From positions 1-50,886 of the forward strand of contig SVPK01000002.1 of assembly GCA_015065875.1 (NCBI GenBank): a stretch of DNA of 50,886 bases. Direction: 5' to 3'. The position numbers and the translations under genes were made by a program. Source of the stretch: Oscillospiraceae bacterium. Its GTDB lineage: Bacteria > Bacillota > Clostridia > Oscillospirales > Acutalibacteraceae. This document shows, piece by piece, positions 20,071-23,205 of this stretch (position 1 is its first letter; each line of letters starts with the position of its first letter). The notes beneath the pieces are model-generated. The model made no database searches. It was not told where the DNA came from and worked only from the letters and a program-made list of their open reading frames with translations.

Positions 20071-20134
20071 AGTTTACATAAAATATAAAATCTGCGATAT
20101 CGTGTGGTTTACATAATGCGTTTACATAATATTC
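20071..20134. promoter_or_regulatory. Cluster of GTTTACATAA motifs resembling the XerD half-site of Firmicutes dif
   Basis: AGTTTACATAA at 20071, GGTTTACATAA at 20106/7, CGTTTACATAA at 20119/20; further degenerate copies at 20154 and 20248. Confidence 0.4.
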
Positions 20135-20154
20135 TAAAACTTGAAAATATTTTG

Positions 20155-20183
20155 TTGACATAATACTTTAAATGTTGTATAAC
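20155..20183 (+). promoter_or_regulatory. Sigma-A type promoter upstream of spoIIM
   Basis: TTGACA-N17-TATAAC. Confidence 0.6.
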
Positions 20184-20371
20184 TAATTATACTGACGTTT
20201 CTGCGTTCGGTTATTTTTTCGCGTTTAATTTATAAATTAGCGCTTTAGGTTACATAATGTTCCCATATTTTCTATATATTGTTTATTCATCTTTGCTTGA
20301 CGCAATATATAGTTTTGCATTTTCGCGCCATCCTCTGCATATATTTTCAAAAAAGCAGGAGGGACAAGATA

Positions 20372-21004
20372 ATGCAAAAGACAACTATAGTTCACCTAAA
20401 GGCTAAAAGGATTACAGCCGTTTTAGCAGATAGTTATCCCATACTAATAATGTTCACGGTATATATAACCGGCATTATTCTAGGGGCCGCTCTGCTAAAG
20501 GGAAATGCCAAAACTATCAAGAAGGCTGAAACGCTTTACCAAAACTTTATATCCGCGCGTAACGGCAAGGGTTTTCTTTCTGTTTTCGGAACGGCGCTAA
20601 TGGAATGGCTACCATTTTTACTTGCGTTGTTTGTTTGCGGAACCTGTATAGCAGGCATGGTAATGCTTCCGTTTTTTGTTGGTTATAAGGGCTTTTGTTA
20701 CGGAGCCTTGGCAGGATATATCTATTCGCAATATTCGTTTGGCGGGATAGTTTTTGTGCTGATTTTTATCGTTCCCGCGACTATAATCGGTGCTTTTGGA
20801 TTGTTCTTTGCCGCTAAACGTTCGTTTTCGTTTTCGCTTTTATTGGCAAAAAGTGTTTTGCCGCGGGGCAGGGAATACAATATGTATAATGTCCTTATTC
20901 ATTATTGTAAGTCCTTTGCAGTCTTGGTATTAACATCCGTTTTTGCGGCGCTTACCGATGCAACCCTTTCGGGAGCATTTTGGGATAAAATAAAAATCAG
21001 TTAA
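20372..21004 (+). CDS. spoIIM: Stage II sporulation protein M-like membrane protein
   Basis: ATG with gcaggaggg SD; multi-TM; located directly upstream of xerD-like gene as in B. subtilis spoIIM-ripX region. Confidence 0.8.
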   Translation: MQKTTIVHLKAKRITAVLADSYPILIMFTVYITGIILGAALLKGNAKTIKKAETLYQNFISARNGKGFLSVFGTALMEWLPFLLALFVCGTCIAGMVMLPFFVGYKGFCYGALAGYIYSQYSFGGIVFVLIFIVPATIIGAFGLFFAAKRSFSFSLLLAKSVLPRGREYNMYNVLIHYCKSFAVLVLTSVFAALTDATLSGAFWDKIKIS

Positions 21005-21032: not shown

Positions 21033-21920
21033 ATGCAGAATTCGGTTTTAAAATTTGAAGATTATCTTAAAAATGAAAAGAAAGCTTCGAAGAATACATT
21101 TGAATCATATATGCGCGATATCGGACAATTCCATGCATATTGTTCTGCCAATAAAATTTCCCAAGTTTCCACCATTACACAAGATACAATTACCCATTAT
21201 TTAAAGTTCTTAAGCTCGGTTGGAAAATCAGAGGCTACCGTTGCTCGCGTAACTGCTTCGCTGCGTTGCTTCTTTACCTATTTAATCAAGCAGGGAAATA
21301 TAGAAGATAATCCAATAAAAGCAGTGAAGCTTTCTCCTGCGCAGAAAAAACTTCCCGAAATATTAACAAACAAAGAGATTGTTCAGTTACTTTCTCAGCC
21401 CGATTGCTCAAATTATAAGGGATGCCGCGATAAGGCGATGCTCGAGCTTTTATATGCAACCGGAATTAAGGTTTCCGAACTTATAGATTTAAAAATAACC
21501 GATATTAACACCCAAATAGGAATACTGCATTTACATACCGAAACAAGCCAAAGAATTATACCGATATATCCCGAAGCGGTTAAATCCATTTCCAACTATT
21601 TAAGTGCCGTGCGCGAGGTTATCATTAGCGATGATTCGGAGGAAATGTTGTTTACTAATATGAACGGACAACCTCTGACTCGCCAGGGATTTTGGAAGAT
21701 TATTAAGCAGTATGCTCAAGCAGCAAATATAAATAAGGATATAACTCCGCATACTCTGCGTCATTCCTTTGCCGCTCATTTGCTCGAAAACGGCGCTCAA
21801 CTGCAGGATATTAAGGAAATGCTCGGTCATTCCGATATCTCCACAACGCAGGTTTACGCACAAATTATGAAGAATAAATATGCTAAGTCTTATAAAAAAT
21901 TCCATCCTATGGCAAGATAA
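21033..21920 (+). CDS. xerD: XerD-like tyrosine recombinase (divergent active site)
   Basis: N-terminal SAM-like core-binding domain; HTLRHSFAAHLLENGAQLQDIKEMLGHSDISTTQVYAQI; but YATGIKVSEL and LHLHTETSQRIIP. Confidence 0.85.
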   Translation: MQNSVLKFEDYLKNEKKASKNTFESYMRDIGQFHAYCSANKISQVSTITQDTITHYLKFLSSVGKSEATVARVTASLRCFFTYLIKQGNIEDNPIKAVKLSPAQKKLPEILTNKEIVQLLSQPDCSNYKGCRDKAMLELLYATGIKVSELIDLKITDINTQIGILHLHTETSQRIIPIYPEAVKSISNYLSAVREVIISDDSEEMLFTNMNGQPLTRQGFWKIIKQYAQAANINKDITPHTLRHSFAAHLLENGAQLQDIKEMLGHSDISTTQVYAQIMKNKYAKSYKKFHPMAR

Positions 21921-22653: not shown

Positions 22654-22696
22654 GATTTTATATATTTAAAAGGGAGGCCCCTGTTTCTCCAAATCT

Positions 22697-22726
22697 AATT
22701 ATACAAAATGAATATTTTGTATAATT
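22697..22726. repeat. Perfect inverted repeat
   Basis: aattatacaaaat-gaat-attttgtataatt (13-bp arms). Confidence 0.8.
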
Positions 22727-23205
22727 AAGGGGAGGACTTTTAGGGTAAATTATGCCAAATAAGCAATTTTAGGCTGTTTTCGAAGCCAAAACACCTATTT
22801 ACATAATATTACCCTGCAGTTAATGCACATTTGCAATTCGTTGATAACATTAAATAATCATTTTAAAAATTAATTTATCTATATTGCGAATTTTCTATTA
22901 AAAAATCCATCGAATAGAAATTTTCAATCCATACCCTAGGTATACCCGAAAAAAACTGAAAGGATGGAATTTTTATAAAAAAGCAATATTTACCACAAAT
23001 TTTCTAAAAAACTACTGAATCATGAAGTAAATAACAATATTACAAAATAAGTATATGAACTTTCACGATATGCCATATGCAAGAATTGTTTAAAAATACC
23101 GGTATTTAGTTATAATGTCTATTTCTGCTCATTCTTGCCTATTATGGTAAAAAACGAGTGAATTAGCTATAGCTTTATAGGATTGATTGGGCTGGAACAG
23201 CTTAA

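Follow-up and report, generated by a model that had tools for sequence, protein, structure and literature searches.

A conserved array of XerD half-site-like boxes at the promoter of the spoIIM-xerD operon in Oscillospirales

Organization of the region upstream of spoIIM-xerD

The stretch of DNA analyzed here (the "window") is 50,886 nt long and comes from an Oscillospiraceae bacterium of the order Oscillospirales (GenBank assembly GCA_015065875.1, contig SVPK01000002.1). On its forward strand, a gene for a spoIIM-like membrane protein (20372–21004; 210 aa) is followed by xerD (21033–21920; 295 aa). The SpoIIM-like protein matches TIGR02831 with E = 1.8e-12 and 47.6 bits, under the curated cut-off of 100.2. 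XerD scores 321.2 bits against TIGR02225, which is also under the curated cut-off, 329.6, but is still the best-scoring family.

Upstream of these genes lie forward-strand copies of a box that resembles the XerD arm of dif. The original prediction reported three exact copies of GTTTACATAA, the first of them directly continued by AATATA, and all three are present: box 1 (20072–20081), box 2 (20107–20116) and box 3 (20120–20129). Boxes 2 and 3 form a close direct pair, with a step of 13 bp (13–15 bp in other genomes). Two of the degenerate copies that it listed are also there, with one mismatch each: box 4 (GTTGACATAA; 20154–20163) and, in the leader, box 5 (GGTTACATAA; 20248–20257). Box 4 includes the hexamer TTGACA (20155–20160) and doubles as the −35 of a sigma-A promoter, TTGACA-17-TATAAC, whose −10 hexamer is located at 20178–20183. 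A promoter consensus scan missed this −10 because the scan demands a T at position 6. The third, at 22797 (ATTTACATAA), falls in a different intergenic region, outside the conserved array and unrelated to it. No Rfam match was found in the array region.

The abundance of the box in the window is not unusual, with nine occurrences of GTTTACATAA at up to one mismatch versus 5.6 expected, so the signal lies in the clustering. Three or more exact copies were obtained in none of 5,000 Markov-1 resamples of the 388-bp intergenic region. The genome-wide count that had been suggested as a check gave 14 exact copies in 1.32 Mb, and their sole close cluster is the array upstream of spoIIM-xerD. A second pair elsewhere in the genome, 81 bp apart on contig C63, matches a pair that falls within coding sequence in the relative G002.

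Conservation of the array

In the window and its seven nearest relatives (L015–L021), the boxes keep the same spacing of 35, 13 and 34 bp, and then about 100 bp, box 1 holding its place in all seven; the motifs are thus conserved in related strains. The DNA between the boxes has diverged despite this fixed spacing. Within the alignment of the window and these relatives, TTGACATAA in box 4 is invariant and TATAA of the −10 is conserved. An element that immediately precedes box 2 in the window, GATATCGTGTG (20096–20106, forward strand), was matched by eye in the alignment to a ATATTGTG-like element in the relatives, and ATATTGTG-like elements were likewise seen by eye 5' of the pair in many members of the order. 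Just 5' of spoIIM, L015–L021 also carry a sigma-E-promoter-like element, ATATCTTGTCC...CATA, which looks degenerate in the window (20310–20370). A second group of loci (L022, L024–L027) has a fixed spacing of its own, about 33, 14, 20 and 14 bp, plus an inverted copy further on.

Evidence from a broader sample came from 80 loci fetched by XerD similarity alone. The 76 that had enough upstream DNA (191 kb in all) contain 46 exact boxes in the forward direction and two in the reverse direction; 400 shuffled motifs scored on the same loci gave a mean of 0.49 and a maximum of 5. The close direct pair was then defined as GTTTACATAAN{2,6}TTTACATAA, and 197 genomes from the order were searched for it. 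It occurs in 23, once per genome, versus none for the reversed control, and every one of the 23 pairs is upstream of, and co-directional with, an operon that contains xerD. These operons are of several types (spoIIM-xerD, proC-spoIIM-xerD, proC-xerD, and a small ORF followed by xerD); the genes ahead of xerD vary, and xerD is the only constant gene. In a sample of the class outside the order, 6 of 279 genomes had the pair, and no xerD match turned up in any of the 3-kb loci. Three loci in another family (L266, L267 and L268) have a 14-bp direct pair and a downstream inverted copy in front of an S-layer-like gene. This is the layout of the xerD array before an unrelated gene, and it counts against the reading of the boxes as XerD operators.

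The sequence, spacing and orientation of the boxes are thus conserved relative to the promoter of xerD's own operon, and the array is almost certainly a conserved operator array of that operon. A simpler explanation would be that the boxes are repeated −35-like hexamers (TTTACA) belonging to several sigma-A promoters. Box 4 does serve as a −35, and weak −10-like sequences accompany boxes 2 and 3. However, the whole 10-mer is conserved, including CATAA, and in the order's other families the pair stands about 75–105 bp 5' of a TTGaaa-17-TATatT promoter, with no good −10 at the right distance from it. We therefore regard repeated promoters as very improbable.

Candidate proteins that bind the array

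Given an operator array, the question becomes which protein reads it. We consider XerD itself the best candidate for three reasons: the box matches the conserved XerD arm of dif, xerD alone travels with the array, and the XerD of B. subtilis, RipX, has been reported to prefer the XerD half-site of dif (PMC5357621). Autoregulation of xerD through these boxes is accordingly the reading that we favor, as a probable one on the strength of sequence comparisons. One observation that counts against XerD as the binder is that no dif containing the box arm was found for the clade in the genomes searched, and the arm therefore cannot be checked against the clade's own XerD. The literature searched offered no paper that joins spoIIM, xerD and a promoter, and none that bears on XerD autoregulation, although such an absence is weak evidence.

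Another DNA-binding regulator, for example one linked to replication initiation, might instead read GTTTACATAA and control the xerD operon, in which case the match to the XerD arm would be a coincidence. Single boxes do occur between dnaA and dnaN, and also beside clusters of DnaA-box-like sequences, in several family members (G002, G006, G009 and G012), and in several members of the order a DnaA-box-like TAATNCACA follows the pair. Yet close pairs of boxes are found within the order only at xerD operons, and a strict test for a box together with a DnaA box was positive in 4 of 150 genomes, as compared with 2 of 150 when the reversed control was used, which does not support a general link. Moreover, xerD is the only candidate regulator gene that travels with the array. 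A regulator other than XerD thus seems unlikely. Loci L215, L227, L234 and L153 have the single box in the dnaA-dnaN intergenic region; in L001, L223, L225, L154 and L232 it lies beside DnaA-box-like clusters that adjoin a small conserved gene.

The XerD protein

Few bacterial proteins are as widely conserved as XerD, which is seen as half of a recombinase. When the XerD of the window was aligned to E. coli XerD (PDB 1a0p), the first catalytic Arg was found to be replaced by Lys146, and the hairpin GKGNKER by HTETSQR (within HLHTETSQR), which removes the beta-hairpin Lys. The catalytic set R-K-H-R-H-Y is thus incomplete, with H, R, H and Y kept. The change from Arg to Lys is common to the window and L015–L021. 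Lys in place of Arg lowers activity but need not abolish it in every tyrosine recombinase.

In a tree of 101 XerD sequences, in which some placements are weak, the Arg-to-Lys change arose about five times, and four of these origins lie within one half of the tree, the half to which nearly all loci with boxes belong. More sequences lack the hairpin Lys than show the Arg-to-Lys change, with the reservation that hairpin length varies and a neighboring Lys might serve in some sequences. Exact boxes are present in 22 of 47 loci without the hairpin Lys versus 0 of 29 loci with it, an association that follows the tree, is confounded by descent and is not an independent test. From these sequences, the XerD of the clade seems to be on the way to giving up its function as a recombinase, and it may be evolving into a regulator that binds DNA or into an SMC unloader.

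A palindrome and a second recombinase

The original prediction took a canonical dif as its point of reference. Searches of the relatives' genomes with two degenerate patterns for a canonical XerC/XerD dif gave no recurrent site, and the likely dif of the clade is instead a feature of the same window, 2.6 kb downstream of the array. This is the perfect palindrome TAATTATACAAAATGAATATTTTGTATAATTA (22696–22727), which we propose to be a single-recombinase-type dif. Its form is AATTATACAAAAT-NNNN-ATTTTGTATAATT, with invariant arms and a variable center, and it is present in 56 of the 197 genomes of the order (single in 52, double in 4), versus 3 genomes for the reversed control. In three complete genomes it lies, measured from dnaA, at 0.445 (G009), 0.51 (G020, assuming a rounded genome length) and 0.51 (G180) of the chromosome, and in G009 it coincides with the GC-skew shift. 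An intergenic location, one copy per genome in most carriers and, in three complete genomes, a place at the terminus are what a single-recombinase dif would be expected to have.

A second recombinase gene, encoding about 340 aa, is found beside several xerD genes, with the palindrome just 5' of it; the two are within about 250 bp of each other in 11 loci. In the window genome this gene is on another contig (L203, G000:C4). Unlike XerD, the second recombinase has R, K (in GKGNKER), H, R, H and Y all intact. Its best NCBIfam matches in L203–L211 are XerC, XerA, XerD and XerS, all below cut-off.

There are parallels with the XerS/difSL and XerH/difH systems, in which the counterpart is the palindrome and not the boxes: it is intergenic, at the terminus, mostly present once per genome, and often adjoins one Xer-like gene of about 340 aa. 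Differences are that the palindrome arms are ATACAAAAT/ATTTTGTAT, that the recombinase of the clade is under the cut-offs for XerS, XerC, XerD and XerA, and that the clade also keeps a degenerate XerD. On sequence grounds, the palindrome is likely the dif of the clade, and chromosome-dimer resolution seems to have passed to it and the second recombinase. If so, the palindrome would provide the dif that searches for the canonical site did not find in these gut bacteria.

The array itself was rejected as a canonical dif. No XerC arm follows any of the box copies in the window, as had been predicted, and the 28-bp layout of XerC arm, 6-bp core and XerD arm, with the arms inverted, is missing; in addition, there are 3–5 boxes in the one array and 14 exact copies in the genome, where a dif would be one site per chromosome. 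As in the canonical dif/XerCD system (CodV-RipX in B. subtilis), the box corresponds to the XerD arm, at least as the original prediction quoted that arm, but unlike that system the array has several direct copies. A dif composed of two XerD arms in inverted orientation was rejected as well, since such pairs occur in 3 of 197 genomes, the same number as in the control, and are no general feature. The box sequence, together with the proximity of the locus to the terminus in G009, could still suggest that the array is an unusual recombination site, a dif built of XerD arms. We find this hardly credible because the arms are direct repeats at a distance of 13–15 bp instead of an inverted pair flanking a 6-bp core, with no XerC arm, because the XerD of the clade lacks catalytic residues, and because the palindrome is a better dif candidate. 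The original view, in which the boxes are operators or isolated XerD sites and fall short of a complete dif, has therefore held up: the array is conserved, tied to the xerD operon and without a XerC arm.

Proposed roles of XerD

A different function for isolated XerD sites is known from B. subtilis, where, according to the account of Karaboja et al. (2021) cited in PMC10945525, XerD binding sites in the terminus region unload SMC. The array could be an XDS-like site of this kind, its place beside xerD being secondary. As in the B. subtilis sites so described, the boxes are XerD half-sites with no XerC arm, and xerD adjoins the proposed dif in the window, G180, G221, G055, G104 and L019. However, the distance between the array and the proposed dif is 2.6 kb in the window and about 100 kb in G009, and in G170 the two are on different contigs; in both of these genomes it stays with the promoter of xerD, and so follows the gene. 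SMC unloading would not need a conserved spacing to a promoter, whereas the array, unlike the B. subtilis sites as far as that account goes, has one at the xerD operon. A further difference from the B. subtilis system in the same account is that the XerD of the clade is catalytically degraded. An SMC-unloading site is, in our judgment, quite unlikely as the primary role of the array.

Under autoregulation, XerD protomers would bind the direct half-sites at the spoIIM-xerD promoter, and the bound protein would cover or bend the promoter region, where box 4 supplies the −35. The layout in other families, with the pair placed 5' of the promoter and an inverted copy near the transcription start, the latter seen by eye in 11 of the 23 pair-bearing genomes, suggests a bridged or looped arrangement. 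The level of XerD would be held at a set point, probably by repression. XerD would then work in the clade mainly as a sequence-specific DNA-binding protein, with the second recombinase and the palindrome resolving chromosome dimers. Taken to its full extent, which we do only tentatively, this would mean that the XerD of the order is no longer a recombinase but a regulator of its own operon, perhaps with a part in SMC release, and that a separate recombinase and a new dif palindrome resolve dimers. If this were true, the DNA-binding role of XerD, including SMC unloading in B. subtilis, would be separable from recombination, and could be tested directly in this clade.

In another family, L207 and L208 carry a variant palindrome, TTCAACAAAATTTTTATTTTGTTGA, 5' of the same recombinase, and palindrome and recombinase may thus have co-evolved.
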